A stretch of 64,000 bases of DNA from Saccharomonospora cyanea NA-134 (GTDB lineage Bacteria > Actinomycetota > Actinomycetes > Mycobacteriales > Pseudonocardiaceae): assembly GCF_000244975.1 (NCBI RefSeq), contig NZ_CM001440.1, forward strand, positions 1,968,325-2,032,324, written 5' to 3'. Of the stretch, positions 1,509-63,946 are shown piece by piece. The notes under the pieces are model-generated. The model was not told where the DNA came from, ran no database searches, and worked only from the letters and a program-made list of their open reading frames with translations. Position 1 is the stretch's first letter. Each line of letters starts with the position of its first letter. The position numbers and the translations under genes were made by a program.

Positions 1509-1539
1509 CGTGTCCGCAGTCTGCGCACGGGTGTCCGCG
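1509..1539 (-). repeat. 31-nt intergenic element, copy A1 (reverse)
   Basis: On the minus strand it reads CGCGGACACC, an 11-nt spacer beginning CGT, then TGCGGACACG. This is one of six equal-length copies in the window, all between genes. It forms an inverted pair with copy A2, 80 bases downstream, in the priA-fmt gap. Confidence 0.75.
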
Positions 1540-1619
1540 GTTCAGCGACACCGCCGCAGCACCAACGGAAGGTGCGGTCCGGCTGGAGAGCCCCCAACGG
1601 ACAACACGCGTACGGGGAG

Positions 1620-1650
1620 TGCGGACACGCGTACGTCAGCTGCGGACACG
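1620..1650 (+). repeat. 31-nt intergenic element, copy A2
   Basis: Two perfect TGCGGACACG half-sites separated by an 11-nt spacer that begins CGT; the best match to the family consensus. The 1597-1615 stretch between A1 and A2 holds a further half-site-like sequence. It lies 29 bases upstream of the probable fmt -10 hexamer, so it could also act on fmt expression. Confidence 0.8.
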
Positions 1651-1678
1651 GCGCATCGGGTGGCTCGCTCGGGCACTC

Positions 1679-1684
1679 TAGACT
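1679..1684 (+). promoter_or_regulatory. Probable -10 hexamer TAGACT of the fmt-rsmB operon
   Basis: TAGACT fits the actinobacterial TANNNT pattern and sits exactly 7 nt before the ATG at 1692. With a start site about 7 nt downstream of the hexamer, the mRNA would begin at that ATG. No clear -35 box is seen. Confidence 0.5.
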
Positions 1685-1691
1685 GGATGCG

Positions 1692-1727
1692 ATGTTGGTT
1701 CCTCGACTCTTCCCGGACCGCCGATGA
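1692..1727 (+). CDS. Possible 11-residue leader peptide overlapping the fmt start
   Basis: A short [14 protein letters not shown], whose ATG is 7 nt after the TAGACT hexamer and whose TGA overlaps the fmt ATG in an ATGA arrangement. fmt has no recognisable Shine-Dalgarno sequence, so translation of this mini-ORF followed by reinitiation would explain how fmt is translated. The peptide has no known family. This is inference from position; conservation in relatives has not been checked. Confidence 0.35.
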
Positions 1728-2656
1728 GGCTCGTGTTCGCGGGAACACCCGCGCCTGCCGTGCCGTCGTTGCGCGCGCTGATCGACTCGCCGCGTCATGA
1801 CGTCGTCGCCGTCGTCACCCGTCCCGACGCGCCCGCGGGCCGAGGGCGCAGACTGGTGCGTTCCCCTGTCGGCGCCCTCGCCGACGAACACGGCATCGAG
1901 GTCCTCACCCCCCGGCGTCCCGGTGACGAGGACTTCCTGGCCAGGTTGTCCGAGCTGGCGCCGGACGCATGCCCCGTCGTCGCCTACGGCGCGCTGCTGC
2001 CGGAGTCCGCTCTCGCGGTGCCGCGTCACGGCTGGATCAACCTGCACTTCTCCCTGCTGCCCGCCTGGCGTGGCGCCGCGCCGGTCCAGGCGGCCGTCAG
2101 GGCCGGTGACGAGATCACCGGCGCCACGACGTTCCGGATCGTGCGGGAGCTCGACGCGGGCCCGGTGTTCGGGACCGTCACCGAGCTCGTCAAACCCACC
2201 GACACCGCCGGGGAACTCCTGGACCGGCTCGCGGTGTCCGGAGCAGGCCTGCTGGTGTCCACGCTGGACGGTATCGAGGACGGCACCGTCGGGGCCGTGC
2301 CGCAACCGGCCGACGGGATCACCTACGCGCCGAAGGTGACGGTCGAGGACGCGCGGATCTCCTTCGACCGCCCCGCGTTGGCGATCGATCGCCACCTCCG
2401 GTCGGTGACGCCCGAGCCGGGCGCGTGGGCGGAGTTCCGGGGACAGCGGCTCAAGCTCGGCGCCGTCGGCGTCACCGACGGCGAGCACACCGGCCTCGCG
2501 CCCGGAGAGCTGCTGGTCGAGCGTCGCCGCGTGCTCGTGGGCACCGCCACCTCGGCGCTCGTACTCGGCGAGGTGCAGGCGCAGGGCAAGAAGCGCATGG
2601 CGGCCACCGACTGGGCCCGTGGAAGCAGGATCGAACAGGGGGAACACCTGACATGA
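1724..2656 (+). CDS. fmt: Methionyl-tRNA formyltransferase
   Basis: Formylates the methionine on initiator tRNA using 10-formyl-tetrahydrofolate, which bacterial translation initiation needs. At 310 residues it has the usual length. The signature [13 protein letters not shown] follows Asn106 and His108, and Asp144 lies in [10 protein letters not shown]; these are the three catalytic residues at the same numbers as in the E. coli enzyme. The C-terminal tRNA-binding domain follows from about residue 205. The chosen ATG has no good ribosome-binding site but overlaps the stop of a tiny upstream ORF. The 3' end overlaps rsmB by ATGA, so the two are translationally coupled. Confidence 0.97.
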
Positions 2657-4080
2657 CCGGCGAGCGGCGGGGACACCGCCACGGGCAGCGCGGACGTCGT
2701 CCCGCGCCCCGCAAGCAGGGCCCGCGCAAACCTCCGGTGCACGATCCGGCGCGACGGGCCGCGTTCGACGTCCTGCGCGCGGTGAGCGAGCGCGACGCCT
2801 ACGCCAACCTGGTCCTGCCGGAGTTGCTGCGGCAGCGGCGCGTTGCCGGCCGGGACGCGGCACTGGCCACCGAACTCGCCTACGGCACGGCGAGGGCCAC
2901 CGGGCTGCTCGACGCGGTGCTGACCCGCTGCGTGGACCGATCACTGGACACAGTGGACTCGATGGCGCTTGACGCGCTCCGGATCGGGGCGTACCAGCTG
3001 CTGCGCACCCGCATTCCCCGCCACGCTGCCGTGGCATCCACTGTGGACCTCGTGCGGGAGGACGCCGGGTCGAGACTCGCGGGTTTCGTCAACGCGGTGC
3101 TGCGCCGGGTTTCCGAGAAGGACGAGCAACAGTGGCTGGAGGAGATCGAGGCCGACACCGCGTCCGACCCGCTGGCACGGTTGGCGCTGCGCACGTCACA
3201 TCCCCGGTGGATCGCGCGCGCGTTCGCGGAGGCGCTCGGCGACACGGGCGACGAGCTGCGGGCGGCCCTGGAGGCCGACGACGCGCGTCCTGCCGTGCAC
3301 CTGCTGGCCAAGCCGGGACAGGTCAGTGCCGACGAGCTGGCCGCCATCACCGGCGGCGACGTGGCGCCCTACTCGCCCTACGGCGTGCATCTGTCGTCCG
3401 GCGGGGGAGACCTCGCCGAATCCGAGGTCCTCGCCGAGGGGCTCGCCGCGGTGCAGGACGAGGGCAGCCAGCTGGTGGCCGTGGCCGCCACCGCCGCGCC
3501 CCTGGCCGGAGGGAAGGACGAGCGCTGGCTCGACCTGTGCGCCGGGCCGGGCGGCAAGACCGTGGTGCTGGGCTGCCTCGCGCAGGTGTCGGGTGCGACG
3601 GTGGACGCCGTGGAGGTGGCCGAGCACCGGGCCCGGCTCGTGCGTGAGGCCACCGACGACCTGCCCGTCGCGGTGCACGTCGCCGACGGTCGTGACCCCG
3701 GACTCGAGGAGGGCTACGACCGGATTCTCGTGGACGCGCCGTGCAGCGGGCTCGGCGCGTTGCGGCGCAGGCCCGAGGCGCGGTGGCGTAAGCAGCCCGG
3801 CGACATCGCCGAGCTCACCCAGCTCCAGAGCGAACTGCTCGCCTCGGCGTATCGGTTGGTGCGCCCCGGTGGCGTGGTGACGTACGTGGTGTGCTCGCCC
3901 CACCTGGCCGAGACCGAGGGCATCGTCGCGGAGGCGGCGCGCCGTGGCGGCGCCGAGGTCCTCGACGCGCGGGAGCTGTTCCCGGGTGTGCCGGGGCTCG
4001 GGGACGGGCCGTACGTGCAACTGTGGCCCCACCGGCACGGCACGGACGCGATGTTCTGCGCGGTGACCCGCAAGCGCTGA
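2653..4080 (+). CDS. rsmB: 16S rRNA (cytosine-C5)-methyltransferase RsmB
   Basis: SAM-dependent methyltransferase of the RsmB/Sun family that makes m5C at position 967 (E. coli numbering) of 16S rRNA. The 475-residue protein has a basic N-terminal extension (about residues 1-35, rich in Arg and Lys), a NusB-like RNA-binding domain (about 35-180), then the catalytic fold. [12 protein letters not shown] (about 290-301) is the SAM site. Cys364 in [15 protein letters not shown] and Cys414 in VVCSPH are the two catalytic cysteines of m5C enzymes. The start at 2653 overlaps the fmt stop by ATGA; the frame remains open upstream but only across fmt. Basic tails of this kind are common in actinobacterial RsmB. 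Confidence 0.95.
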
Positions 4081-4184
4081 GCGCACCGGGCGGAGGGGCT
4101 GCGGCCCGCGCCGGACGAACCGGCCACTCTGGACGGTCTCGCCGGGCGGTGTGGCGCGGCGGAGCCGACGGCCCTGCCGCGGCA

Positions 4185-4210
4185 CCGGGTCGGGAGGTAC
4201 GCCGACCCGG
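4185..4210 (+). terminator. Stem-loop after rsmB
   Basis: Perfect 9-bp stem (CCGGGTCGG with CCGACCCGG) and an 8-nt loop, with no T-tract. A second pair, 4120-4130 with 4211-4221, is an 11-bp perfect inverted repeat (CCGGCCACTCT) that would enclose it. The whole 4081-4260 gap could therefore fold. Probably a terminator for fmt-rsmB just before the rpe promoter. Confidence 0.45.
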
Positions 4211-4259
4211 AGAGTGGCCGGAAAGGGGTCCGTGCGCGCCCGTGCGCCGAGGATCCCTC

Positions 4260-4265
4260 TACACT
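4260..4265 (+). promoter_or_regulatory. Probable -10 hexamer TACACT of rpe-rib operon
   Basis: TACACT ends 7 nt before the rpe GTG at 4273. This fits a leaderless transcript that begins at or next to the start codon and supports the choice of GTG over the ATG at 4288. Confidence 0.55.
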
Positions 4266-4272
4266 CGGGAGA

Positions 4273-4959
4273 GTGGCGCACGAACCGATGATCGCTCCCA
4301 GTATCCTCTCCGCCGACTTCGCGAGTCTCGGCACGGAGATCGACGCCATCACCGGATCCGGTGACGGTCGCGCCGACTGGGTGCATGTGGACGTGATGGA
4401 CGGTCACTTCGTCCCCAACCTCACCATCGGGCTGCCCGTGGTGGAATCGCTGCTGAAGCGCACGGAGCTCCCGCTCGACTGCCACCTCATGATCGAGGAT
4501 CCCGACCGCTGGGCGCCGGGGTACGCGGAGGCGGGCGCCCACAACGTCACCGTGCACGTCGAGGCCGCTCGTGACCCGGTGATGCTCGCCAAGAACCTGC
4601 GTGCCGCGGGAGCGAAGGCCGGACTGTCGATCAAGCCGAACACGCCGCTCGAAGACCATCTGGACACGCTCAGGCACTACGACACGCTGCTGGTGATGTC
4701 CGTGGAGCCCGGCTTCGGGGGGCAGTCGTTCATCCCCGAGGTGCTCGACAAGGTGCGCACCGCACGCAGGCTGGTCGACACGGGGCACCTGACGTTGCTG
4801 GTGGAGATCGACGGCGGTATCAACGCCGACACCATCGAACAGGCCGCGGAGGCGGGGGTCGACTGCTTCGTCGCCGGATCCGCCGTCTACGGCGCGGACG
4901 ACCCGGCTCGCGCGGTCGCGGCGCTGCGTGACCGCGCGAGGGCGGCCCGCGCGCGGTGA
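4273..4959 (+). CDS. rpe: Ribulose-phosphate 3-epimerase
   Basis: Interconverts ribulose-5-phosphate and xylulose-5-phosphate in the pentose-phosphate pathway. The 228-residue TIM-barrel protein shows the family blocks: [11 protein letters not shown] at the N-terminus, [12 protein letters not shown] with the metal-binding His and Asp, [20 protein letters not shown] and EIDGGIN. The GTG start is backed by the TACACT hexamer 7 nt upstream. It overlaps ribD by GTGA. Ribulose-5-phosphate is also the precursor of the 4-carbon unit of riboflavin made by RibBA, so linkage to the rib genes makes metabolic sense. Confidence 0.96.
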
Positions 4960-6032
4960 GCACGTCGGCTGCGTCGGCATCGTCGGCCTGGGGGCCGGAA
5001 CTCCGCGAGGCCGTGGAGGCCGCGATGGAGACCGCGCTCGCCCTGAGTGACGGCGTACGCGGAACCACCAGCCCGAACCCGCCCGTGGGCGCGGTGATCC
5101 TCGACGCCCGGGGACACCAGGTCGGTGCGGGCGCCACCCAACCGCCGCCCGGCCCGCACGCCGAGGTGATGGCCCTGCGGGAAGCGGGTGAACGCGCGCG
5201 TGGCGGTATCGCCGTCGTCACGCTGGAGCCGTGCTCCCACCACGGGCGCACCCCGCCGTGCACGCGGGCCCTGCTCGATGCCGGGGTGGCCGCCGTGCGG
5301 TTCGCCGTGGCCGACCCGCACCCCGCCGCCTCGGGTGGGGCGGAGGTGCTGCGGGCCGCGGGAGTGGACGTCGAGGGCGGGCTGCTGGCCCGGCAGGTGG
5401 AGACAGGGCCCTTGCGGGCGTGGTTGCACCGCGAGCGCACCGGACGCCCGCACGTCACGTGGAAGTACGCGGCGAGCCTCGACGGCCGGGTCGCCGCGGT
5501 CGACGGCACCAGCCGCTGGATCTCGGGCCCGGCCTCACGCGCCGAGGTGCACGAGCTGAGGGCGCGGGTGGACGCCGTCGTCGTGGGCACCGGCACCGTG
5601 TTCGCCGACGACCCGTGGCTCACGGTGCGGCACGAGGATGGTGAGCTCGCGGCCCGGCAGCCGCTGCGTGTGGTGATGGGCACACGCGGCATACCGGAGG
5701 GGGCGCGGGTGTTGGACAGCACGGCGGAGACGGTGGTGTTCGCCACCCACGACCCCGGCGAGGTGCTGGCCGGACTGGCCGCGCGGGGCGTCGTCGACGT
5801 GCTGTTGGAGGGCGGTCCGACTCTGGCGGGAGCGTTCGTCGCGGCGGGCCTCGTCGACCGGATCGTCGCCTACGTCGCACCGACGCTGTTGGGCGGCGGA
5901 CCCGCCGCACTGGGAGAGGCGGGAGTGTCGACCATCACCGAAGCGCACCGTTGGCGGGTCGAAGGGGTCACCATGAGCGGTGAGGACGTGCGGATCTCCG
6001 CCGTTCCGGTCACGGGCGAGGGAGGCGACTAG
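4956..6032 (+). CDS. ribD: Bifunctional riboflavin deaminase/reductase RibD
   Basis: Performs two early riboflavin steps: deamination of the pyrimidinone from GTP cyclohydrolase II, then NADPH-dependent reduction of the ribose side chain. The 358-residue protein has an N-terminal zinc deaminase domain with HAE (His68) and [12 protein letters not shown] supplying the zinc ligands, and a C-terminal reductase domain from about residue 150 with [22 protein letters not shown] and [12 protein letters not shown]. The GTG start overlaps the rpe stop (GTGA). ribE starts on the base after its stop codon. No FMN riboswitch is visible upstream of this gene or of rpe. Confidence 0.96.
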
Positions 6033-6655
6033 GTGTTCACCGGGATTGTCGAGGAGCTCGGCGAGGTCACTCGGGTGGAGCCGGGCGAGGGGGTCACGCG
6101 GCTGACCGTGCGGGGGCCGCTGGTGACCGAGGACGCCGGGCACGGTGACTCGATCGCGGTCAACGGTGTGTGCCTGACCGTGGTGGACACCTCCGGTGAC
6201 GAGTTCACCGTCGACGTCGTCGCCGAGACGTTGAAGCGCACCAGCCTGGACGGTGTCGAGCCCGGTCGGCGCGTGAACCTGGAGCGGGCGATGGCCGCCG
6301 GCGGCCGCTTCGGAGGGCACGTCGTGCAGGGCCACGTGGACGGCACCGGCACCTTCCTGTCGCGCGACCCCGACGGGCTGACCCGGTTCGCGTGTCCGCC
6401 CGAGCTGTCGCGCTACGTCGTCGAGAAGGGCTCCATCGCGGTGGACGGCGTCTCGCTCACCGTGGCCGAGGTGTCGCGGGAGGAGTTCGCCGTGGCGTTG
6501 ATCCCCACCACGCTGCGCGCCACGATGCTGGGTCGCAACGAGCCGGGTGACGCGGTGAATCTGGAGGTCGACGTGCTCGCGAAGTACGTCGAGAAACTGG
6601 CCGCCGTCCACCTGCCCCCGGCAGCGGTGGAGAATGGCGAGGGCGAGGAGGACAG

Positions 6656-6659
<4 letters not shown>
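6033..6659 (+). CDS. ribE: Riboflavin synthase alpha subunit
   Basis: Catalyses dismutation of two 6,7-dimethyl-8-ribityllumazine molecules to riboflavin, the last step of the pathway. It begins with the hallmark [10 protein letters not shown] and has the two repeated lumazine-binding barrels (about residues 1-95 and 96-190): NGVCLTV and [13 protein letters not shown] in the first, DGVSLTV in the second. At 208 residues it is the normal length. The GTG start abuts the ribD stop with no gap and its own stop overlaps ribBA by GTGA. The gene is called ribC in some actinobacteria and Bacillus literature; the product is the same. Confidence 0.96.
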
Positions 6660-8963
<2,304 letters not shown>

Positions 8964-8967
8964 CCGG

Positions 8968-9930
8968 TCAGGACGCCGCGCCGGTGGTGGTCGGCTCGGC
9001 CGTGCCGGCCTTCACCCGGCGCGGCCGGTGGCGTGACAGCGCGACCCCGGCCAGGCAGACCGCTCCGCCCACGAGGCCGTAAACGGTGGGGACCTCGTTC
9101 AGGAGCACCCACGACAGCAGCACCGACAGCGCGGGCACCGCGTACGTGGAGACGCTGAGCCTGCCCGCACTCGTGCGCTTGAGCGCGTAGGCCCAGGTGC
9201 TGAATCCGATGGCGGTGGGGAAGACCCCGAGGTAGACGGCGCCGAGCACGGCGGAGGTCGGGGCGGCCGAGAGTTCGGAGACGAGCTGCGGCGTCCACGG
9301 CAGCAGGGCCGCGGTGCCGATCAGGCAGCCCAGCCAGGTGATGGTCGTGGCGTCGACGCCTCGCAGTGCCGCCTTCTGGATGAGCACGCCGCTCGCGTAG
9401 AGCACGGCGGCGAGCAGGCAGAGTGCGACGCCGATCCAGTCGCCCTGGCTCTCGGTGCCCAGACCGATGATGACGATGCCGCCCATGCCGACGGCGCCTC
9501 CGACGAGCAGCGCCCTGGGGAAACCCTCGCCGAGCAGGAACCCGGCGCCGAACGTGACGAGCAGCGGCGCGATGTTGACCAGCAGGGCGGCCGTACCGGC
9601 GTCGAGGTGGAGCTCGGCGGCGTTGAGCGAGACGGTGTAGCAGCACAACCACAGCACGCCGTAGGCGATGACGAGCAGCCACGACGTGCGATCGCGTGGA
9701 AGGGGCGGCAGGCGCCTGGCGGAGACGCCGATGAGCAGGGTGAGCGTCACGGAGGCCACGGCGAGGCGGAGCAACGCGAGGGGCGCGGGGGACAGCACGT
9801 CGCCGATGGCGCGGATGCCCACGAACGCCGACGACCACAGCACCATTGTCACGGCCGCGGCGACGGCGGCCTTCGTTCCTTCGGAGCGTGGGGTGCGGGC
9901 AGAGGAGAGCAACGATGTCACACCGGCCAT
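8968..9930 (-). CDS. EamA/DMT-family transporter
   Basis: Ten-helix drug/metabolite-type transporter with the two five-helix EamA repeats (VLWSSAFVGIRAIG opens the first, AVLYASGVLIQKAALRG the second). The last helix is followed by a basic cytoplasmic tail (RHRPRRVKAG). The substrate cannot be told from sequence; relatives export amino acids or metabolites. I use the ATG at 9930 (MAGVTSLL). An in-frame ATG at 9969 would add 13 residues and is possible, because an AACAGT sequence sits 5 nt before it. The gene is divergent from lysR, the usual layout of a LysR regulator and its target exporter. Confidence 0.85.
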   Translation of the reverse strand: MAGVTSLLSSARTPRSEGTKAAVAAAVTMVLWSSAFVGIRAIGDVLSPAPLALLRLAVASVTLTLLIGVSARRLPPLPRDRTSWLLVIAYGVLWLCCYTVSLNAAELHLDAGTAALLVNIAPLLVTFGAGFLLGEGFPRALLVGGAVGMGGIVIIGLGTESQGDWIGVALCLLAAVLYASGVLIQKAALRGVDATTITWLGCLIGTAALLPWTPQLVSELSAAPTSAVLGAVYLGVFPTAIGFSTWAYALKRTSAGRLSVSTYAVPALSVLLSWVLLNEVPTVYGLVGGAVCLAGVALSRHRPRRVKAGTAEPTTTGAAS

Positions 9931-9974
9931 CGTTACCAAGGCGACCCGACAGGACAAGCGATTAATCATGGATC

Positions 9975-9998
9975 ACTGTTCAGTCCCGCTGTACAGTC
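9975..9998. promoter_or_regulatory. Twin palindromes between eamA and lysR; lysR -10
   Basis: ACTGTTCAGT (9975-9984) and CTGTACAG (9990-9997) are both self-complementary around their centres and nearly the same sequence. TACAGT (9992-9997) within the second stands 6 nt before the lysR GTG, so it doubles as a -10 hexamer. This fits an autoregulatory LysR operator that also covers the eamA promoter. Confidence 0.5.
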
Positions 9999-10003
9999 GG
10001 GTT

Positions 10004-10906
10004 GTGCTGGACGTGAGCCGGTTGCGGGTGTTGCGTGCCGTGGTGGCGAAGGGGTCGATCCGGGCGGCGGCCGCCGCTCTGGACTACACGCCGTCGGCCG
10101 TCAGCCAGCAGCTCGCGGCCCTGCAACGCGAGACGGGACTGCGGTTGCTCGACCGCGTGGGCCGAGGTGTCGAGCCCACCGCCGCAGGGCGCGCGCTCGC
10201 CGCCGAGTCCGAGGCACTGTTCCGGGAATTGAGCCGCCTCGACGGTCTGGCCCGGGACCTGCGGGCAGGCCGTACCGGCGGCCTGGTGATCGGGTACTTC
10301 GCGTCGGCGGGCGCGGCGTGGCTGCCCTCCGTGGTCACCGCGCTGAGGGAGGAGTTCCCCGAACTGCGTCTCGACCTGCGCTGGACGGAGGTGCTCGACG
10401 AACAGCCCTCCGACCTCGACGTCAACGTGTACGTCGAGGCGCGCGGTGCTCGGCCTTCCGAGGAGGTCGTCGTGTACCCGCTGATCGACGACCCCTACGA
10501 GGTCGTCATGAGGGAGGACGACCCGCTCGCGACGCGCGGGTCCGTGGCGCTTCCGGAACTGGCCGACCGGGCGTGGATCGACAACGACCTCAGGAACGGG
10601 GCCTGCCGGGAGGTGTTGCTGGCCGCGTGCGCCGAGGTGGGCTTCGCGCCCCGGTTCTCGGTGGAGATGCGGGACTACCGGACGGCGATCCCGTTCGTGG
10701 CCAGTGGCATCGGGATCACGGTTCTGCCCAGGCTGGCGCGGGGCGACCTGCCGGCGGGCCTGGTCTCGCGGCCGGTGGTGTCGCCGACGCCTGTGCGGCG
10801 GATCAACGTGGCGGTTCGCAAGGCCGTCGCCGACCACCTCGCCGTGGTGCGCACGGTGGAGTTGCTCCGGCAGGTGGTGGGCTCCGAGGCGGCGGTCAGG
10901 GCGTGA
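10004..10906 (+). CDS. LysR-family transcriptional regulator
   Basis: A 300-residue LysR-type regulator: winged helix at residues 1-60 (LDVSRLRVLRAVVAKGSI then AAAALDYTPSAVSQQLAAL), then the periplasmic-binding-like effector domain (GLVIGYFASAGAAWLPSVV onwards). The GTG at 10004 is chosen because TACAGT lies 6 nt upstream and because LysR proteins start just before this first helix; an ATG at 9968 would add 12 residues. It is divergent from the EamA transporter and probably controls it. The effector is unknown. The 3' end overlaps the convergent exonuclease gene by 11 bases. Confidence 0.9.
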   Translation: MLDVSRLRVLRAVVAKGSIRAAAAALDYTPSAVSQQLAALQRETGLRLLDRVGRGVEPTAAGRALAAESEALFRELSRLDGLARDLRAGRTGGLVIGYFASAGAAWLPSVVTALREEFPELRLDLRWTEVLDEQPSDLDVNVYVEARGARPSEEVVVYPLIDDPYEVVMREDDPLATRGSVALPELADRAWIDNDLRNGACREVLLAACAEVGFAPRFSVEMRDYRTAIPFVASGIGITVLPRLARGDLPAGLVSRPVVSPTPVRRINVAVRKAVADHLAVVRTVELLRQVVGSEAAVRA

Positions 10907-11675: not shown

Positions 11676-11742
11676 GCCGTGAGAATCGCACACCGGTGCG
11701 ACACACTCGGTGACCAGCCTTGTATAACGACCTATACGCACG

Positions 11743-11771
11743 GGCTCGGGTTCACGATTTCTCACCGAGCC
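11743..11771 (-). terminator. Weak stem-loop after the GNAT gene
   Basis: Seven-bp perfect stem (GGCTCGG with CCGAGCC) with a 15-nt loop, 25 bases past the stop of the acetyltransferase gene on the minus strand. No T-tract follows. It could separate that gene from xthA. Confidence 0.3.
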
Positions 11772-11795
11772 GCCTTTGGCGACGTCGGAATCAGC

Positions 11796-51462: not shown

Positions 51463-51486
51463 TGCTGCGGGCGCGCGTACAGGAGT

Positions 51487-51517
51487 TGCGGACACGCGTG
51501 CGCAGGCTGCGCACACG
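51487..51517 (+). repeat. 31-nt intergenic element, copy B
   Basis: TGCGGACACG, an 11-nt spacer starting CGT, then TGCGCACACG (one mismatch). It lies between the ABC permease stop and ctaA. Confidence 0.75.
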
Positions 51518-53266: not shown

Positions 53267-53272
53267 AGGGTA
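53267..53272 (-). promoter_or_regulatory. Probable -10 hexamer TACCCT of the ABC operon
   Basis: TACCCT on the minus strand, 8 nt before the ABC ATPase GTG at 53258; it fixes that start over the longer one. Confidence 0.4.
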
Positions 53273-53283
53273 GAGCGAACGGG

Positions 53284-54891
53284 TCAGTGACCGACCGCCG
53301 GGCGACCGGCACGGCCGGACCGGCTGGGCTTTCCGGGGCGCCGCAGCAGCATCGGCGCGCGGCGCCATGCGATCAGCACCATGAGCGCGACGACGACCAG
53401 CGCGGCGACGAACGCCTGGTGGAGGATGTACGACCGGTTGTCGAACGGGCTTCCGGTGGGCGGGATGAGCAGGGCCAGGGTCGCGCTCACGACGGTGGCG
53501 GCGTTGCGGAACCGCGACGTGCCCGCCGCGGCGGCGAGCGGGATCACAGCCCACAGCAGCCACCACGGCTGCATCGACACGTGCAGCATCATGAAGGCGC
53601 CGAGCGAGACGCCCAGCCCGATGATCGGGCGGTACCGCCAGTGGAAGCTGTCCCACAGGAACTTCAACGTCACCGCGCCGGCCACGCCGTAGCCGAGCAG
53701 GCCGAGGATCGCGATGACCGACCCCGTGTGGTTGCCGAGACCCAGCACGATGCCGAGCACACCGCCGAGCTGGCCCAGCTCGGCCACGGGTGACAGCCAG
53801 CTCCACACCTTCGACGGTGTCTCCAGCGCCCCGATCCAGCCGAATCCGAGCCCGGTGCCGAAGCCGACGGCCAGGGTGACGGCCATGAACACGACGAGCA
53901 TGACGACGGCCGCGACGGCGAGGTCGGCGAAGCGCCCCCGGCCCCGCCTCGCGATCATCACGCCGAAGAATCCGAGCGCCACGATGGCGTGGATCTTCAC
54001 CATCGCCGCGAGCGAGATCACCACCGCGCCGAGCACGATGTAGGCCAGCTCGCCCCTGCCCCAGGGCGGTGGGGGTTCGCCCTTCACGCGGACGGCGAGC
54101 CTGCGCATGCCGAGCTCCAGGCCCGCGAGCATGAGCCCGATGCCGAGCGCTTCGTTGTGGGCGCCCGCCACCAGGTGGAACAGCACGAGTGGGTTGGCGG
54201 CACCCAGCCACAGGGCCGTGCCGGGGGCCACGCCGTAGCGGCGCGCCAGGCGCGGCAGCGCCCACACGATGAGTCCGAAGCCGACGAGGGCCACCAGGCG
54301 TTGCAGGAGGACACCGACGGCCACGTTCGTGCCGACGACGCCGCCCAGCCAGCTGCCGATCTCAAGGAACAGCGGTCCGTACGGTGCGGGGGTGTCGCGC
54401 CACATGTTCGACACGCCCGCGGTGAACGGGTCGGCCACGCCGAGTGCCTCGGCGGGCCCGAGGGCGTAGGGGTCGAACCCGCGCCGCACGATCTCGCTCT
54501 GCGCGAGGTAGCTGTAGACGTCCCGGGAGAACAGCGGGGGGATGACCAGCAGCGGCAGCGTCCAGGTGACGAGCGTGCGCAGCACCTGGCCCTGACTCGC
54601 GACCCGGTCGCGGCCGGGTCTGGCGAAGCGGCCCAGCCACAGCCAGGCGATCACCATCATCCCCATGCCGGTGAACGCGATCGCGACCGACACGGTGGGA
54701 ATGCGGGTGAACAGCCGCAGGACCGGAATCTCCAGTACCGGGTTGAGGATCGGTGCCGCTCCAGCGCCGAGGGAGCCGAACGCCAGGAGCAGCGCTCCGA
54801 CGATGCCGAAGCGGCGCGTCACTCCCAGCGCGCGTGTCTCATCGGCGTCGAGCGGGTCCGTCCCACCCGGGTCAACCGGTGATCGCGTCAT
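53284..54891 (-). CDS. mptB: Polyprenol-phosphomannose-dependent alpha-1,6-mannosyltransferase
   Basis: GT-C glycosyltransferase that starts the alpha-1,6-mannan core of lipomannan and lipoarabinomannan, working from decaprenyl-phosphomannose on the outer face of the membrane. The 535-residue protein has about 13 helices and PPLFSRDVYSYLAQSEIVRRG (split: PPLFSRDVYSYLAQSEIV), whose Asp is in the family's catalytic loop, and NPLVLFHLVAGAHNEALGIG, split NPLVLFHLVAGAHNE. The ATG at 54891 is used; a GTG at 54915 (VVVGKGGIM) is 7 nt after TACCCT and may be the real start. It is divergent from sufR, as Rv1459c is from Rv1460. Confidence 0.88.
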   Translation of the reverse strand: MTRSPVDPGGTDPLDADETRALGVTRRFGIVGALLLAFGSLGAGAAPILNPVLEIPVLRLFTRIPTVSVAIAFTGMGMMVIAWLWLGRFARPGRDRVASQGQVLRTLVTWTLPLLVIPPLFSRDVYSYLAQSEIVRRGFDPYALGPAEALGVADPFTAGVSNMWRDTPAPYGPLFLEIGSWLGGVVGTNVAVGVLLQRLVALVGFGLIVWALPRLARRYGVAPGTALWLGAANPLVLFHLVAGAHNEALGIGLMLAGLELGMRRLAVRVKGEPPPPWGRGELAYIVLGAVVISLAAMVKIHAIVALGFFGVMIARRGRGRFADLAVAAVVMLVVFMAVTLAVGFGTGLGFGWIGALETPSKVWSWLSPVAELGQLGGVLGIVLGLGNHTGSVIAILGLLGYGVAGAVTLKFLWDSFHWRYRPIIGLGVSLGAFMMLHVSMQPWWLLWAVIPLAAAAGTSRFRNAATVVSATLALLIPPTGSPFDNRSYILHQAFVAALVVVALMVLIAWRRAPMLLRRPGKPSRSGRAGRPAVGH

Positions 54892-55000
54892 GATCCCGCC
54901 CTTGCCCACAACCACGGGGGTGAGGGTATCGACTCCCGTCGCCACGTGAGTCCGGTCACTCGGCTTCGGGCCGACTTTGCCCCTGTTCCGGAAATACGAC

Positions 55001-55015
55001 ACACTTATGTTGTGA
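55001..55015 (+). promoter_or_regulatory. SufR operator ACACT-N5-TGTGA overlapping the sufR start
   Basis: ACACTTATGTTGTGA, an exact match to the ACACT-N5-TGTGA site reported for M. tuberculosis SufR. The right arm contains the GTG start codon (55012). CACACT (55000-55005) doubles as a -10 hexamer 6 nt before that codon. Bound SufR would therefore cover promoter and start codon at once. Confidence 0.8.
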
Positions 55016-55857
55016 AAAAGCAGGGGACGTTCGACGAGCACGGTGGCGGTGCGCCGCCCGCCGTGCCGGACTCCTCTGCTCCGGTGACTCCGGTGATGAC
55101 GGAGGGCCGGACCCGCCATGAGGTCGCCAGGCTCCTGCTGGAACAGGGGCCGTTGTCGGCCGCGGCCGTCGCCGAGCAGTTGGGCATCAGCGCCACCGCG
55201 GTGCGCAGGCACCTCGACGCGCTGGTGGCCGACGACGAGGCGCAGACGCGCCAGGCTTCCCGTCGCGGCCGTCGCGGTCGCGGCAGACCCGCCAAGCTCT
55301 TCCTGCTCACCGAGCAGGGTAGGGCCAGGTTCGGACACGCCTACGACGACCTCGCCGTCTCGGCCATCCGGTTTCTCGCCGAACATGCCGGGGAACAGGC
55401 CGTCAAGGCGTTCGCCGAACGTCGGGTGTCGGCCCTCGTGGGCCCGTACCGCGAGGCGGTGACCCGGCACGCCGACGCCGAGTCGAGGGCCGAGGCCCTT
55501 GCAAGCGCCCTCACCAGGGAGGGCTACGCTGCGTCGACCCGCAAGGTGGCGACACCGGGTTCGAACGCGGTGACGCACGGTGCGCAACTGTGCCAACACC
55601 ACTGCCCGGTCGCGCACGTCGCAGCTGAGTTCCCGCAGCTGTGCGAGGCGGAGACCGAGGCGTTCGCCGAGCTGCTCGGCACACACGTGCAGCGGCTGGC
55701 GACGATCGCACGCGGCGACGCCGCGTGCACCACGCACGTACCCGCCGATCCGGTGGGTAGTGAAGGGAGCCGTCGACATCCGCCCCCCTCGGCCGACAGT
55801 GCCGTGGAGCACCAGGACATCGACAGTGCAACTCCGAACGGAGGGACTACCGCATGA
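55012..55857 (+). CDS. sufR: SufR, Fe-S-sensing repressor of the suf operon
   Basis: An ArsR/DeoR-type winged-helix regulator. The DNA-binding helix-turn-helix is at [21 protein letters not shown] (split: [21 protein letters not shown], about residues 48-68). The cluster-binding cysteines are LCQHHC and, 13 residues later, LC (about residues 191-208), the spacing (C-x3-C-x12-C) of the 4Fe-4S ligands in mycobacterial SufR. Expected role: represses the operon when holo, derepresses under iron or oxidative stress. The GTG at 55012 overlaps the operator; an ATG at 55096 (MTEGRTRH) is an alternative. It overlaps sufB by ATGA. Confidence 0.92.
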
Positions 55858-57302
55858 CTGCCGCTGCCGAGCAGCGCAATCCCACCACCGAGCCGCTGAG
55901 CCAGGAAGAGACCATCGAGGCTCTGGGCAAGTACCAGTTCGGTTGGGCCGACCCGGACACGGCGGGCGCGAGCGCCCGTCGAGGACTGAACGAGGACGTC
56001 GTCACCGACATCTCCGCGAAGAAGTCCGAGCCGGAGTGGATGCGCGAGACGCGCCTGAAGGCACTCAAGCTGTTCGAGCGCAAGCCGATGCCGAACTGGG
56101 GCGCCGACCTGTCGGGGATCGACTTCGACAACATCAAGTACTTCGTGCGCTCCACCGAGAAGCAGGCCACGAGCTGGGACGATCTGCCCGCCGACATCAA
56201 GAACACCTACGACAAGCTCGGTATCCCGGAGGCGGAGAAGCAGCGCCTCATCGCCGGTGTGGCCGCGCAGTACGAGTCCGAGGTCGTCTATCACCAGATC
56301 CGCGAGGACCTGGAGAAGCAGGGCGTCATCTTCCTCGACACCGACACCGGCCTGAGGGAGCACCCGGAGCTGTTCAAGGAGTACTTCGGCTCCGTCATCC
56401 CCGCGGGTGACAACAAGTTCTCCGCTCTGAACACGGCCGTGTGGTCCGGTGGGTCGTTCATCTACGTGCCGCCGGGTGTGCACGTCGACATCCCGCTGCA
56501 GGCCTACTTCCGGATCAACACCGAGAACATGGGCCAGTTCGAGCGCACGCTGATCATCGTCGACGAGGGCGCGTACGTGCACTACGTCGAGGGCTGCACG
56601 GCGCCGATCTACCAGTCGGACTCGCTGCACTCGGCCGTCGTGGAGATCATCGTGAAGAAGGGCGGCCGCTGCCGCTACACGACGATCCAGAACTGGTCGA
56701 ACAACGTCTACAACCTGGTCACCAAGCGCGCCAAGGCCGAAGAGGGCGCCACCATGGAGTGGATCGACGGCAACATCGGCTCCAAGGTGACGATGAAGTA
56801 CCCGTCGGTGTTCCTCATGGGCGAGCACGCCAAGGGCGAGGTGCTGTCCGTGGCGTTCGCCGGTGAGGGGCAGCACCAGGACGCGGGCGCCAAGATGGAG
56901 CACCTCGCGCCGCACACGTCCTCGACCATCGTGTCGAAGTCGGTGGCGCGCGGCGGTGGCCGTACCTCGTACCGGGGCCTCGTGAAGGTCGCGAAGCGGG
57001 CGTACAACTCCAAGTCCAGCGTGGTGTGTGACGCGCTGCTGGTGGACACGATCTCGCGGTCGGACACCTACCCGTACGTCGACATCCGCAACGACGACGT
57101 GTCGATGGGGCACGAGGCCACCGTGTCGAAGGTCAGCGAGGACCAACTGTTCTACCTGATGTCGCGCGGTCTCACCGAGGAAGAGGCGATGGCCATGGTG
57201 GTGCGCGGATTCGTCGAGCCCATCGCGCGCGAGCTGCCCATGGAGTACGCGCTCGAGCTGAACCGCCTGATCGAACTGCAGATGGAAGGAGCCGTCGGCT
57301 GA
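55854..57302 (+). CDS. sufB: Fe-S assembly scaffold SufB
   Basis: Scaffold subunit of the SufBCD complex, in which the nascent cluster is built. The 482-residue protein has the conserved [40 protein letters not shown], and [18 protein letters not shown] with catalytic-region His and Cys residues (GCTAP carries the conserved Cys). No intein is present, unlike the M. tuberculosis orthologue, which carries one. The ATG overlaps the sufR stop; sufD starts one base after its stop. Confidence 0.96.
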
Positions 57303-57303
57303 C

Positions 57304-58482
57304 ATGACGGTCGCCGAGAACACGAACACCGCCAACACCGCCGCCGCGGCCGAGGCGCTCGTGCCCGCCGCCTCCCGCGGTGAGCGGTTCACCTCCTACG
57401 ACGTCGAGGCGTTCGAGGTACCGGGCGGTCGTGAGGAGAACTGGCGGTTCACGCCGATGAAGCGGCTGCGCGGCCTGCACGACGGGTCCGCGCCCGCCAC
57501 GGGTGAGATCACTCTGGACGCCGAGGCGGCGCCCGAGGTCACGGTCGAGACGGTGGCGCGGGACGACGCGCGGCTCGGTGAGGCCGGCGTGCCCAGCGAC
57601 CGCGTCGCGGCGCAGGCGTACTCGTCCTTCGAGAAGGCCACGCTGATCACCGTGCCGAAGGAGACCAAGGCGTCGACCCGCACCCTGGTCCGGTTGACCG
57701 GACCCGGCGAGGGCAAGACCGCCTACGGGCACGTGCAGGTGCGGGCGGAGCGGTTCGCCGAGGCCGCGATCGTGCTCGACCACGTGGGTTCCGGCACCTA
57801 CGCCGACAACATCGAGTTCGTGATCGGCGACGGCGCGAACCTCACCGTCGTCAGCGTGCAGGACTGGGCCGACGACGCGGTGCACGTGTCCGAGCAGCAC
57901 CTGAAGCTCGGCCGCGACGCGACGCTGAAGCACATCGTCGTCACCCTGGGCGGCGACCTCGTGCGCGTGAGCCCCACGGCCACGTTCTCCGGCCCCGGAG
58001 GCAGCGTCGAGATGCTCGGGCTGAACTTCGCGGACTCGGGCCAGCACCAGGAGCACCGTCTCTTCGTCGACCACGCGGTGCCGCACTGCAAGTCGAACGT
58101 GCTCTACAAGGGCGCCCTGCAGGGCGACGACGCGCACTCGGTGTGGATCGGTGACGTGCTCATCCGGGCCGCCGCGGAAGGTACGGAGACGTTCGAGCTG
58201 AACCGCAATCTCGTCCTCACCCAGGGCGCTCGCGCCGACTCGGTGCCGAACCTGGAGATCGAGACGGGCGAGATCGAGGGCGCGGGCCACGCCAGCGCCA
58301 CGGGAAGGTTCGACGACGAGCAGTTGTTCTACCTGCAGTCGCGGGGCATCGCGGAGGAGCAGGCGCGCAGGCTCGTCGTGCGCGGGTTCTTCCACGAGAT
58401 CCTCATGAAGATCGACATCCCCGAGGTGCGCGAGCGCCTCGAGGCCGCGATCGAGGAGGAGCTCCAGGCCATCGGTGCCTGA
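57304..58482 (+). CDS. sufD: Fe-S assembly protein SufD
   Basis: Paralogue of SufB; forms the SufBC2D complex. The 392-residue protein shows the SufD/SufB beta-helix core, with [36 protein letters not shown] and the conserved His in [19 protein letters not shown] near the C-terminus. The GTG-free ATG at 57304 has no room for its own ribosome-binding site outside sufB. A 62-base gap to sufC follows. It takes part in iron acquisition by the complex. Confidence 0.95.
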
Positions 58483-58544
58483 GCCGGCCCGACCACGAAG
58501 CTGACCACGCTCACGAAGACTCACGGAAAGATCGAAGAGAAGGC

Positions 58545-60635
<2,091 letters not shown>

Positions 60636-60636
<1 letters not shown>

Positions 60637-61088
60637 TGGACCTCGAATCCATGTACCAGGAGATCATCCTGGACCACTACAAGAACCCGCACGCCCGCGG
60701 CCTTCGTGACCCGTACGACGCCGAGTCGTTCCAGGTGAATCCCACCTGCGGCGACGAGGTGACGTTGCGGGTGCGGCTCGAAGGCGACCTCGTGGCCGAC
60801 GTGTCGTACGAGGGTCAGGGGTGTTCGATCAGCCAGGCGTCGACGTCGGTGCTGACGGACCTCGTCATCGGGCGGCCGCTCGACGAGGCACTCGTGAAGC
60901 TGGAGGCGTTCACCCAGCTCATGCAGAGCCGTGGTGATGTCGAGCCCGACGAGGACGTGCTGGAGGACGGCGTCGCGTTCGTCGGCGTCGCGAAGTATCC
61001 GGCCCGGGTGAAGTGCGCCTTGCTCGGCTGGATGGCATTCAAGGATGCTGTGGGCAGGACGTCGACCAGTGAGGTGACAGCACGATGA
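60636..61088 (+). CDS. sufU: SufU sulfur-transfer protein
   Basis: Zinc-dependent sulfurtransferase that accepts persulfide from SufS and passes it to SufB. The 150-residue IscU-like protein has the three conserved zinc/active-site cysteines NPTCGDEV, YEGQGCSIS and RVKCALLGW, with the SufU-specific insertion between the second and third. It overlaps sufS by one base and sufT by ATGA. Confidence 0.95.
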
Positions 61089-61489
61089 GCGAGACCGGGA
61101 CGGCCGACCACCGCGAGGGTCGCACGGCGGCGGACCTGCCGGAGCAGACGCAGCCCGCCCCGAGCGGTGACGTGGCCAAGATCGAGGACATCGAGGAGGC
61201 CATGCGCGACGTCGTCGACCCCGAACTCGGGATCAACGTCGTCGACCTCGGGCTGGTCTACGACATCCGTGTCGACGAGGAGAACACGGCCACCATCGAC
61301 ATGACGTTGACGTCGGCGGCCTGCCCGCTGACCGACGTCATCGAGGACCAGACGGCATCGGTGCTCACCGGGGCCACTCCCGTGGTGAAGGATTTCCGGA
61401 TCAACTGGGTCTGGATGCCGCCGTGGGGTCCCGAGAAGATCACCGAGGACGGCCGCGAGCAGTTGAGGGCGCTGGGCTTCACGGTCTGA
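61085..61489 (+). CDS. sufT: SufT/MIP18-family Fe-S maturation factor
   Basis: A 134-residue DUF59/PaaD-like protein with DPELGINVVDLGLVYDI and SAACPLTD, whose Cys may bind iron or a cluster. SufT proteins help load clusters on targets and are needed when Fe-S demand is high. The N-terminal 35 residues are hydrophilic and variable. The ATG overlaps the sufU stop. It is the last suf gene; the convergent ABC1 gene ends 112 bases away behind an inverted pair of 31-nt elements. Confidence 0.93.
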   Translation: MSETGTADHREGRTAADLPEQTQPAPSGDVAKIEDIEEAMRDVVDPELGINVVDLGLVYDIRVDEENTATIDMTLTSAACPLTDVIEDQTASVLTGATPVVKDFRINWVWMPPWGPEKITEDGREQLRALGFTV

Positions 61490-61502
61490 GCCGTCCCTGG
61501 AC

Positions 61503-61533
61503 TGCGAACACGCGTCGACAAACTGCGGACACG
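61503..61533 (+). repeat. 31-nt intergenic element, copy C1
   Basis: TGCGAACACG, 11-nt spacer starting CGT, then a perfect TGCGGACACG. It faces copy C2, 23 bases away. Confidence 0.75.
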
Positions 61534-61566
61534 CCGGTGGGTGGAAACCTCGCCGGCGTGTCCGCA
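61524..61566. terminator. Hairpin made by facing half-sites of C1 and C2
   Basis: TGCGGACACGCCGG (61524-61537) pairs perfectly over 14 bp with 61553-61566, leaving a 15-nt loop. It sits between the convergent sufT and ABC1 stops and should act in both directions. Confidence 0.7.
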
Positions 61567-61587
61567 TTCTGTGTACGGGTGTTCGCA
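61557..61587 (-). repeat. 31-nt intergenic element, copy C2 (reverse)
   Basis: On the minus strand: TGCGAACACC, 11-nt spacer starting CGT, then TGCGGACACG. It forms an inverted pair with C1. Confidence 0.75.
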
Positions 61588-61601
61588 GCCTGCGTACGCC
61601 G

Positions 61602-63578
61602 TCAGGACTCGTCAGGATCGTCGTGTTGGGCACGGAACGCGAGGAACAACAGGCGTAGTCCCACGAGGGCGCTGACGACCAGCAGGTTGTAGCCGAGAAG
61701 CTGGTGCAGTGTCACGTCGGGCAGCACGGCCGGACCTCCACCCCCGGTGAGCAGCAGAACGGACATGAGCCCGGTCGCCGCGCCGAGGAACGCCAGCAAC
61801 ACCTCGTGCAGCCACCGCGTGACCTGGCGGCGGTCGCGTGGGTCGGCCAGCAGCCGCACGTTCACCGACAGCCTGCCCTGTTCCAGCGCGCCGGTGATGC
61901 GGTCCACCCTGCGGGGAAGCCGCCGCAGCAGCGGGAGGACGCTGAGCAGTTCGCGTGCCATGGCGTCCCTCACCGAGGTGGGCTGCAGCCGGGCGTCGAT
62001 CTCGTCCGCCGCGAACGCGCGCGCAGCACCGAGGAGGTCGAACTCGGGGGCCAGGGCCGTGAGAGTGCCCTCCAGTGTCGCGAGCGCACGGAACACCGCG
62101 GCTATCGGCGCGGGAACGGAGAGCCGGAACTCCGCGACGAGCCGGAACAGATCGGTGAACAGCGCGGCGTCCGGGCCGGCGCCGCTCTGCAGGTGCTGCG
62201 CGAGGAGTCCGCCGAGCGCGCGTTCGAGCCGTTGCTCGTCGAGGTCGTCCGGATGTTCGAGGACCAGCAGCAGGCTGTCGCGCAACGCCGCCGGATCACT
62301 GCGGTCGACCGCCACGAACAGTGACCGCAGGCCTTCGCGCAACCCGAGGTCGAGCCGTCCGACGGAGCCGAAGTCGAGCAGGCCGAGGGTGCCGTCGTGC
62401 ACGAGCACGTTGCCCGGATGCGGATCGGCGTGGAACGTGCCCGCGTCGAGGATCTGGCGCAACAGGCAGGTCAGTAACGCGGTGGCCAGGCCGCGCCGCT
62501 CGTCGCGGTCGTCCGGTAGGCGGGCCTGGGTCACCGGAGTGCCCTGGAGCCGTTCCATGACGAGCACGCGCTCCGTCGTCCACTCCGGATGCGGGCGGGG
62601 GATGCGCACGGCAGCCTTCGGTGTCGCCGCGGCGGCCTTGGCGATGGCTTCGGCGTTGCGGGCCTCGATGCGGAAGTCGAGCTCCTCGAACAGGGCGGAG
62701 GCGAAGCCGTCGGCGAGGTCGAGCACGCCGAGTGCGCGGGCCCACGCCGCGCGGCGGTGCAGTGTTCTGGCGAGCTGGGTGACGATGTCGATGTCCCGCT
62801 CCACCCGTTCCCGGATGTCGGGACGCTGCACTTTCACGACCACCTCCTCACCGCTGTGCAGGCGGGCGCGGTACACCTGTGCGATCGAGGCCGACGCCAG
62901 CGGTTCGGAGTCGAACTCGGCGAACACCTCGTGCACGGGTCTGCCGAGTTCGTCGCGCAGGACGCGCTCGATCTCCGCCTGCGGGGCCGCGGTGACCTGA
63001 CTCTGCAGGCGGCTCAGCTCGTCGATGAACGAGGGCGGCAACAGGTCGGTGCGGGTGGACAGCACCTGACCCAGTTTGACGAACGTGACCCCGGCTTCCT
63101 CCAGCGCGCGACGCAGCGACCGGGCCAGAGTGGCCTGCCGGACGTCGGTGTCGTGGCCGGCGCGTCGTCCGGCGAGGTACGGCCCGAGGCCGTGGCGGAC
63201 GGCGATGGTCGTGATGCGCGAGTAGCGGCGGGTGCGGGAGGCACGGCGCCGCAGGGCTCGGATCCTGCCGATCGGTCCGAGTCCGGAACCGCTGGGGAAC
63301 GCCATCTCGGCGACGAACAGGAACACGAGCGTGGCCAGGAATCCCACGCCCGCCACCGGGATGAGCAGCCAGAACCCGACGCTGGGGTCTTCGCGGACCT
63401 CGAACAGCGGCAATCGTGACACGACGAAACCCGCGATCGCCCACCCGAACAGGGCGGCGGCGAAGGCCCGCACGGTGCCGATCGGCACGCCGAGAACCCG
63501 TCGGGAGGCCACCACGAGTGGCCACAGCATCAACAGGTAGAGCGGCAGACTCAGAACAGCGAGCAACACCGAGGACAT
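61602..63578 (-). CDS. ABC1/UbiB-family atypical kinase-like membrane protein
   Basis: A 658-residue protein with two N-terminal membrane helices (about residues 2-22 and 34-55, then a third to about 95), a long ABC1/UbiB kinase-like domain (VTFVKLGQVLSTRTDLLPPS is the KxGQ loop; LASASIAQVYRARL the Ala-rich nucleotide loop; FHADPHPGNVLV and LLDFGSVG the catalytic and metal-binding motifs) and two C-terminal helices (about residues 600-650). UbiB-type proteins serve lipid and quinone metabolism; the substrate here is unknown. The ATG at 63578 is chosen; the frame upstream is not conserved in type. Confidence 0.85.
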   Translation of the reverse strand: MSSVLLAVLSLPLYLLMLWPLVVASRRVLGVPIGTVRAFAAALFGWAIAGFVVSRLPLFEVREDPSVGFWLLIPVAGVGFLATLVFLFVAEMAFPSGSGLGPIGRIRALRRRASRTRRYSRITTIAVRHGLGPYLAGRRAGHDTDVRQATLARSLRRALEEAGVTFVKLGQVLSTRTDLLPPSFIDELSRLQSQVTAAPQAEIERVLRDELGRPVHEVFAEFDSEPLASASIAQVYRARLHSGEEVVVKVQRPDIRERVERDIDIVTQLARTLHRRAAWARALGVLDLADGFASALFEELDFRIEARNAEAIAKAAAATPKAAVRIPRPHPEWTTERVLVMERLQGTPVTQARLPDDRDERRGLATALLTCLLRQILDAGTFHADPHPGNVLVHDGTLGLLDFGSVGRLDLGLREGLRSLFVAVDRSDPAALRDSLLLVLEHPDDLDEQRLERALGGLLAQHLQSGAGPDAALFTDLFRLVAEFRLSVPAPIAAVFRALATLEGTLTALAPEFDLLGAARAFAADEIDARLQPTSVRDAMARELLSVLPLLRRLPRRVDRITGALEQGRLSVNVRLLADPRDRRQVTRWLHEVLLAFLGAATGLMSVLLLTGGGGPAVLPDVTLHQLLGYNLLVVSALVGLRLLFLAFRAQHDDPDES

Positions 63579-63946
63579 CGACGACCCTGAAGATCCGGCC
63601 CGGAACGGGCAGCGCGGCAGTGTGACCGCCGACAGTACCGTATCCGGCCGAACGTCCGTGAGCTGCGAGCACGCGTCCATGGCCCGCGGACAGGGCGGGG
63701 AGCGTGCCGTTCTCCGGTGTGTCCGGGGCTCCGCGAGGGCCTTCCGGCAGGGAACGACGGAACCGATCGGGCAGGCGGACCGGCAAGCTGCCGTCCGTAC
63801 ACACTGTCCGAACCCGACTGTCGCGCTCGGCCGGCACGCCGACCGGACGTGCGCCTCCGTCTGCTTCGGACGGTTTTTCCGAGGCGGTCGGAGGCGGTCG
63901 GAGGCGCCCGGCGAGCAGCGCGGAGCCGTTCTGGCAGGCTTGCCGT
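63579..63946. other. 368-base gap upstream of the ABC1 gene
   Basis: No gene is supported. It contains diverged repeat copy D (63664-63694) and two and a half tandem copies of GAGGCGGTCG at 63881-63910. It should contain the promoters of the ABC1 gene and of the truncated gene at the window end. Confidence 0.5.
63664..63694 (+). repeat. 31-nt intergenic element, diverged copy D
   Basis: TGCGAGCACG, 11-nt spacer starting CGT, then CGCGGACAGG: same length but four half-site mismatches. It is 86 bases upstream of the ABC1 start. Confidence 0.5.

Follow-up and report, generated by a model that had tools for sequence, protein, structure and literature searches.

The stretch of DNA analysed here (the window) comprises 64,000 nucleotides of the soil bacterium Saccharomonospora cyanea NA-134, at G000:C1:1968325-2032324 of a genome (G000) that consists of a single 5,408,301-bp contig. 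Between its genes lies a short repeat that a preliminary description had presented as a 31-nt element occurring six times, each copy being formed by two 10-nt half-sites set 11 nt apart. The coordinates and sequence of all six copies were checked in the window and found to be correct; the observation as a whole is confirmed, and the interpretation attached to it is partly supported. A relaxed pattern (up to 3 mismatches) gave 8 matches in the window, where 0.04 were expected; none of 100 shuffles yielded more than 1. The two additional matches proved to be extra half-sites of the copies at 1620 and 51487, indicating that the unit is a 21-bp tandem repeat and not a closed 31-mer: the 31-nt sequence is present, but each of these two copies consists of the last pair of half-sites in a row of three (1599-1650 and 51466-51517). 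The sixth copy is present at 63664, as reported, but is degenerate and lies between divergent genes, and its membership is doubtful. The rows of half-sites are referred to below as arrays, and their common orientation, read in the mRNA sense, is STOP-CGTGTCCGCA-N11-CGTGTCCGCA. The features of the window are as follows.

1509..1539, minus strand: array of two half-sites, 16 nt past the stop codon of the gene at 2-1492 (+), in the common orientation.
1599..1650, plus strand: array of three half-sites with a degenerate first half-site (listed previously as 1620-1650), in the middle of the gap between the co-directional genes 2-1492 and 1733-2656.
51466..51517, plus strand: array of three half-sites, 11 nt past the stop codon of the gene at 52335-51529 (-), in the common orientation.
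61503..61533, plus strand: array following the stop codon of the gene at 61085-61489 (+); being the left arm in a tail-to-tail pair, it runs opposite to the common orientation.
61524..61566, no strand assigned: inverted half-sites closing on a hairpin, TGCGGACACG-CCGG...CCGG-CGTGTCCGCA, with convergent genes on either side.
61557..61587, minus strand: array following the stop codon of the gene at 63578-61602 (-); right arm of this pair.
63664..63694, plus strand: degenerate copy and doubtful member, between divergent genes (63578 on the minus strand, 64001 on the plus strand) and not at a gene end.

Arrays were collected from an S. cyanea sample consisting of the window and 20 stretches of 20 kb, the latter picked for holding 2 to 6 listed matches each, so that densities and retention shares describe the sample and are not genome-wide; the stretches of other genomes were mostly chosen likewise for containing matches, and the same reservation applies to their retention shares. 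Gene ends were taken throughout from our own codon-usage open reading frame (ORF) caller, not from Prodigal. Of the 76 candidates in the S. cyanea sample, 8 were discarded because their half-sites were weak (4 of these lay inside ORFs), which left 68 retained arrays. Labelled genomes include S. glauca (G001), S. azurea (G003), S. viridis (G005), S. xinjiangensis (G010) and S. amisosensis (G110), and the sequence of Saccharomonospora sp. NB11 equals G004.

An array consists of 2 to 9 half-sites of 10 nt (TGCGGACACG in S. cyanea), placed in tandem at 21 bp and running head to tail. The distance between half-sites in the S. cyanea sample was 21 bp 109 times, 20 bp once and 22 bp 3 times; the corresponding figures were 85, 1 and 2 in 14 stretches from congeneric species and 25, 0 and 0 in five stretches from two further genera, and the spacings fall at 21, 42 or 63 bp. 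Half-sites placed at 21 bp all face the same side of the helix. The earlier proposal, that a repeat distance of two helical turns would allow a dimer to read both half-sites from one side, is strongly supported as regards the pitch, which recurs with other cores, but 2 to 9 head-to-tail sites are better fitted by an oligomer than by one dimer; we infer that a protein reads the half-sites from one side of the DNA. Counting degenerate units, two units were found in 49 of the 76 S. cyanea candidates, three in 21 and four in 6, and the largest array, with nine half-sites, is from S. azurea. Among 80 arrays, 63 end in an exact TGCGGACACG half-site and 28 begin with one, the first half-site often being TGCGAACACG or TGCGAACACC; as the last half-site is exact far more often than the first, the array has polarity.

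The S. cyanea unit has the consensus TGCGGACACG-CGTRCRNRRVS, in which CGTRCRNRRVS is the spacer. The statement that the spacer begins with CGT holds for S. cyanea (C 89 %, G 94 %, T 86 %) but scarcely for S. viridis, G009 and G002. Arrays of 6 to 9 half-sites with near-identical spacers were observed in S. azurea (L084 8536-8713) and G009 (L078 5-119), the likeness of the spacers being a sign of recent expansion; the arrays of S. cyanea are mostly heterogeneous in comparison. Where two arrays stand head to head, the gap favours 8 + 21k bp (at least 44 of 188 site pairs in S. cyanea and 53 of 107 in its congeners), and the 8-nt centre bears a loose resemblance to YCGYRSGV in several genera. No clear phase was seen in tail-to-tail pairs.

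In the complete S. cyanea genome the 31-nt pattern with up to 2 mismatches occurs 215 times (117 on the plus and 98 on the minus strand), compared with 2 occurrences (0 and 2 by strand) of a reversed control pattern, which excludes the chance-level count under which the preliminary description would have been withdrawn. With up to 1 mismatch, a match of any kind was found in 20 of 61 genomes: 154 to 410 copies are present in 8 of the 12 genomes of the genus, S. cyanea included, and outside the genus 96 in G020 and 55 in G031, which represent two other genera, the other 10 genomes having one each. A pattern that also fixes CGT-N-C in the spacer has matches in 12 of 297 family genomes and reduces the count from 410 to 3 in G009, from 199 to 1 in G005 and from 170 to 2 in G002, indicating that the 10-mer is common to these genomes and the spacer is a matter of dialect. 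A three-half-site pattern (up to 2 mismatches) was found in 6 of 298 genomes of the order with 38 to 243 copies each (control 0), and an exact pattern scan of a named genome collection returned Saccharomonospora sp. NB11 with 6 stretches.

One genome, G175, has 5 matches in its entire length, all within 2.6 kb beside one gene cluster (L077 9383-12011; G175:C1:6291382-6294010), and lies outside the array-bearing clade described below. These matches were probably carried in together with the adjacent cluster, which, as judged from reading its translations, is mostly metabolic (isopentenyl-diphosphate isomerase-like, oxidoreductases, ferredoxin) with few ordinary regulators. No obvious gene for a candidate factor was seen among these translations, no family search having been run. 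The dialect of an array may serve as a fingerprint of horizontal transfer and of its donor.

That all copies lie between genes is true of 64 of the 68 retained arrays, although 8 of the 76 candidates are inside predicted ORFs. Three of the four ORFs containing a retained array have a Pfam domain, with the array outside it by coordinates, and the fourth has no Pfam hit, so that no array is shown to interrupt a domain. The 64 intergenic arrays are distributed over convergent (34), co-directional (25) and divergent (5) gaps, whereas random placement in the same gaps (2000 trials) put a mean of 8.0 and a maximum of 23 arrays between convergent genes. Of the 64, 39 are in the common orientation with a stop codon no more than 25 nt away, a number for which the same randomisation gave a mean of 5.2 and a maximum of 12; the commonest distance from stop codon to array is 3 nt (12 of the 76 candidates). 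The placement is mostly intergenic and often stop-proximal, not the random scatter inside genes that would have spoken against the preliminary description. Judged from position alone, it fits terminators, a role that is put forward here as a proposal. In one S. cyanea stretch (L039) four arrays are found about 3.5 kb apart, at 4695, 8280, 11745 and 15287, the last three having the same gene ending and an identical array; they seem to have been copied along with tandemly duplicated genes.

Retention was examined at 60 junctions matched between S. cyanea and other genomes, with arrays in both at 11, in the other genome only at 1, in S. cyanea only at 0 and in neither at 48; where either genome has an array, 11 of 12 rows have one in both. 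Two of the 11 shared rows are duplicates, as NB11 and G004 are identical in sequence. At the single junction with an array in the other genome only, S. cyanea carries a degenerate half-site flanked by two good ones, which are 42 bp apart. As compared by eye, the shared junctions differ in unit number and spacers and their intergenic DNA is often hard to align, and the stop-proximal half-sites stay.

A stray match in G006 led to a different repeat, GCGAGTTGCCC, which has a 21-bp period and stands behind a stop codon. Its pattern was found in 4 of 100 family genomes (38 matches in G117, 11 in G087, 2 in G092 and 2 in G110), G006 being outside the 100. Half-sites of the GCGAGT dialect are 21 bp apart in 104 cases, 20 bp in 6 and 22 bp in 10, and 34 of its 44 array candidates are intergenic, 23 of these having an upstream gene in the same sense. 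In G117 a 574-bp convergent gap (L109 8039-8612) is largely filled by 21-bp units: from one side come 18 forward half-sites, with 33 masked bases in their midst, and from the other 6 reverse half-sites. The G006 unit CGTGTCCGCGAGTTGCCCTTT holds both cores; from this combination in a single sequence, the dialects may be suggested, short of proof, to descend from one unit.

Intergenic self-similarity was scanned without reference to any motif at lags 12 to 40, excluding masked bases. The top lag was 21 in stretches of G006, G011, G087, G117, G110 and G067, as well as in the S. cyanea window, G009 and G005. At lag 21 there were 0 bases in one stretch each of G012, G013, G015, G016, G018, G021, G023, G025, G026, G029, G030, G035, G061, G068 and G079, in a second stretch of G006 and in single stretches of G007 and G008; G017, G019 and G028 had 44 to 49 bases at this lag, which ranked under other lags. 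When more DNA was scanned, lag 21 was the leading lag in both G007 and G025 and ranked third in G008 and fourth in G067. G025 has several arrays (L156 5658-13216) whose cores, among them CGAGATCCGC and CGAGTTCCGC, represent a further dialect belonging to genus g15; 20 kb elsewhere in this genome showed none. In an rpoB tree of 30 genomes, which includes G043 and G175 from outside the lag scan, the 20 genomes in which arrays were seen form one clade (100/98), G008 and G067 being placed among them on thin evidence of about one locus each, and G175 is sister to this clade. The arrays are restricted to one clade as far as sampled, and related genera carry 21-bp arrays with other cores, often behind stop codons. 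Outside the clade the negatives come from one 3.7 to 20 kb stretch per genome and from pattern searches for known cores; they are weak, given that no array was seen in the first 20 kb of G025 but some were present further on.

The spacing at helical pitch, the polarity, the placement after stop codons, the enrichment between convergent genes and the retention at most compared junctions with turnover of spacers and units are observed directly, and the arrays look like a gene-boundary signal of undescribed design. We tentatively favour, at somewhat less than an even chance, the reading that the repeats serve at gene ends as polar boundaries or terminators, and that a putative factor, binding head to tail, reads them from a single face of the DNA; both the factor and the polar termination or insulation of transcription are inferred. 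In its commonest form the array starts a few bases past the stop codon and points back at that gene. A clade-specific factor would bind the row of half-sites cooperatively, head to tail, the loaded array would form a polar barrier at which transcription running out of the gene is ended or blocked, and two facing arrays would insulate convergent genes from one another. Recognition spread over several sites on one face is proposed as the reason why pitch and orientation are held while the core drifts into dialects. The wider claim, that a clade of Pseudonocardiaceae marks its gene ends by a conserved geometry read by a putative filament-forming, head-to-tail termination factor, with the sequence dialect changed several times and pitch and polarity kept, is somewhat doubtful.

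A number of observations weigh against a gene-end factor. Proximity to a stop codon (25 nt or less) in the common orientation fails for 25 of the 64 intergenic arrays of S. cyanea; 9 arrays are this close to one in the opposite orientation, divergent genes flank 5 of the 64, and for 30 there is no oppositely oriented mate within 200 bp. The GCGAGT dialect has only 11 of its 34 intergenic arrays within 25 nt past a same-sense stop codon (3 in the opposite sense), and 10 of the 44 candidates are inside predicted genes. Two arrays outside the 60-junction table are unmatched in S. cyanea: opposite one in G009 half-sites occur only singly, an exact one at 12 nt from a stop codon being among them, and one in S. 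viridis has no counterpart, the neighbouring gene having changed. Off-phase head-to-head gaps (49, 70, 59) are also common in S. cyanea, the Y/R variation of the spacers would allow G-U pairing on the mRNA strand, the tail-to-tail pair at 61503 and 61557 looks like an ordinary hairpin terminator, and paired arrays fold as RNA far beyond shuffles (median z -4.3, n=15). On account of the two unmatched arrays and the single arrays in opposite orientation, the proposed factor was lowered slightly in our estimate and two of its rivals, hairpin terminators and repeats spread by a transposase, were raised.

According to the first of these rivals, the arrays are bidirectional terminators at the RNA level, in which facing half-sites fold into GC-rich transcript hairpins and the sequence is common since the units were copied; we regard this as unlikely. 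It is favoured by the folding of the paired arrays and by the frequency of the exact 8-nt centre in head-to-head pairs. Moreover, 4 of 7 distinct tail-to-tail sites (two corresponding pairs, including 61524-61566 of the window) extend the half-site stem into the centre. In the S. xinjiangensis orthologue of 61524-61566 the pairing is retained (CCG/CGG) with a different loop, and the corresponding tail-to-tail sites L051 8923 and L062 803 show a compensated stem change, CCGGTG/CACCGG in L051 against CCGGGG/CCCCGG in L062. The hairpin reading therefore stays alive for tail-to-tail sites, although the other three lack an extended stem. It sits poorly with the 30 arrays that have no opposite mate and with the weak folding of single arrays (the median z is -1.2 for the 33 in the common orientation and -1.9 for the 12 with the opposite orientation; gene ends without arrays gave -0.2, 90 of 173 being sampled). 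The half-site nearest the centre of a head-to-head pair, far from the exact end, is more often the degenerate one. Spacer similarity between the arms of a pair is 0.54 in S. cyanea (n=23; 0.57 for unrelated spacers) and 0.55 in other species (n=7; 0.54 for unrelated), and a single long RNA hairpin across pairs was ruled against, the spacers of paired arms being no more alike than unrelated ones. A mini-hairpin within each unit of the GCGAGT dialect was likewise judged not to be supported, for want of convincing covariation, by a pair-wise test on 126 distinct units (148 units), in which the best Watson-Crick z was 4.1 for pair (8,12) with a 3-nt loop and the expected stem pairs scored lower (4,14: 2.9) or were missing from the top list; the half-site of the CGTGTCC dialect is almost invariant, leaving no covariation to score. 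With unmated arrays, weak single folding and unmatched spacers, RNA alone explains less of the data.

The second rival, a selfish or domesticated interspersed repeat resembling repetitive extragenic palindromic (REP) sequences and bacterial interspersed mosaic elements (BIME), spread by a transposase and best tolerated behind stop codons, is distinctly unlikely. A copy number of hundreds would fit it, and REPs too lie mainly downstream of ORFs, between convergent and co-directional genes (PMC3733652). Y1_Tnp (the REP-associated tyrosine transposase, RAYT; PF01797) was not found in S. cyanea, other transposase families not being tested, and a RAYT/REP origin was rejected for this species on that ground; across 27 genomes Y1_Tnp is present in 4 of 19 with arrays and 1 of 8 others, and also in 5 of 14 control genomes. 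The units are direct repeats with no clear palindrome or GTAG/CGTC tag, G175 has only its 5 matches by one gene cluster, and most compared junctions agree in the presence or absence of arrays. The earlier suggestion of a miniature repeat spread by a transposase consequently finds no support for the one family tested. Two exact patterns matched no stretch of viral_contigs, which also led to the rejection of a phage origin. A topological or nucleoid site, at which phased arrays would bind gyrase or an architectural protein and absorb supercoils between convergent genes with no termination, is very unlikely: helical phasing and the enrichment between convergent genes agree with it, but it would need neither a stop codon within a few bases nor a preferred orientation, and 25 of the 64 arrays are in co-directional gaps. 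Neutral tandem duplication of gene-end sequences by slippage is highly improbable; it is in keeping with the varying unit number among orthologues and with some arrays of identical units, but leaves unexplained the common core at hundreds of places, the preferred orientation, the missing 20- and 22-bp spacings and the retention at orthologous junctions.

GC-rich actinobacteria make antibiotics and industrial enzymes, and to our knowledge the way in which their transcripts end is poorly understood. A sequence-defined, oriented gene-end element that is kept at orthologous places in several culturable, sequenced species makes the question of termination testable. The arrays are a possible bait for the proposed factor and could serve as insulators in the building of gene clusters, and the drift of the core at a constant 21-bp pitch provides a natural experiment on a change of specificity in a system with hundreds of sites.

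No description of these repeats was found in the open-access literature, most subscription papers being outside that search, and no Rfam family matched the window at its gathering score. We know of neither a common sequence nor a 21-bp tandem array to be expected of the intrinsic hairpin terminators of GC-rich actinobacteria; the hairpin between convergent genes at 61524-61566 resembles them, whereas single arrays fold weakly. DNA uptake sequences act as single sites and frequently form inverted pairs at terminators. As a single motif, the 8-mer GCGGACAC occurs 13 times in the window, to which its count was confined, with 10.9 expected; enrichment there is seen for the phased, arrayed form. 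In the Neisseriaceae, DNA uptake sequences are described as short motifs with dialects between related species (PMC3630211), and dialects between relatives are found for the arrays also. The unique spacers of clustered regularly interspaced short palindromic repeats (CRISPR) are absent, the 11-nt spacers having a consensus, and the S. cyanea genome paper gives 0 CRISPR repeats (PMC3910552), cas genes not having been searched. BldC is described in PMC5859096 as forming head-to-tail oligomers on variable numbers of direct repeats in actinobacteria, at promoters and on AATT-type repeats, with 9 bp per subunit and sites about one helical turn apart, whereas the half-sites of the arrays are rich in GC, lie two turns apart and occur mostly at the 3' ends of genes; BldC serves as a precedent for head-to-tail binding to direct repeats and not as a candidate factor. 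The short repeats of the REP and BIME families are numerous in a genome and lie for the most part downstream of genes, in gaps between convergent or co-directional ORFs (PMC3733652; PMC2817692), and intergenic placement at gene ends was found for the arrays as well. REP units are palindromes with GTAG or CGTC tags, whereas the arrays are head-to-tail direct repeats at 21 bp, and the S. cyanea unit consensus has no GTAG/CGTC end and, by eye, only weak imperfect pairing. The arrays are thus high-copy gene-end repeats that share the placement of REP and BIME sequences but not their architecture.

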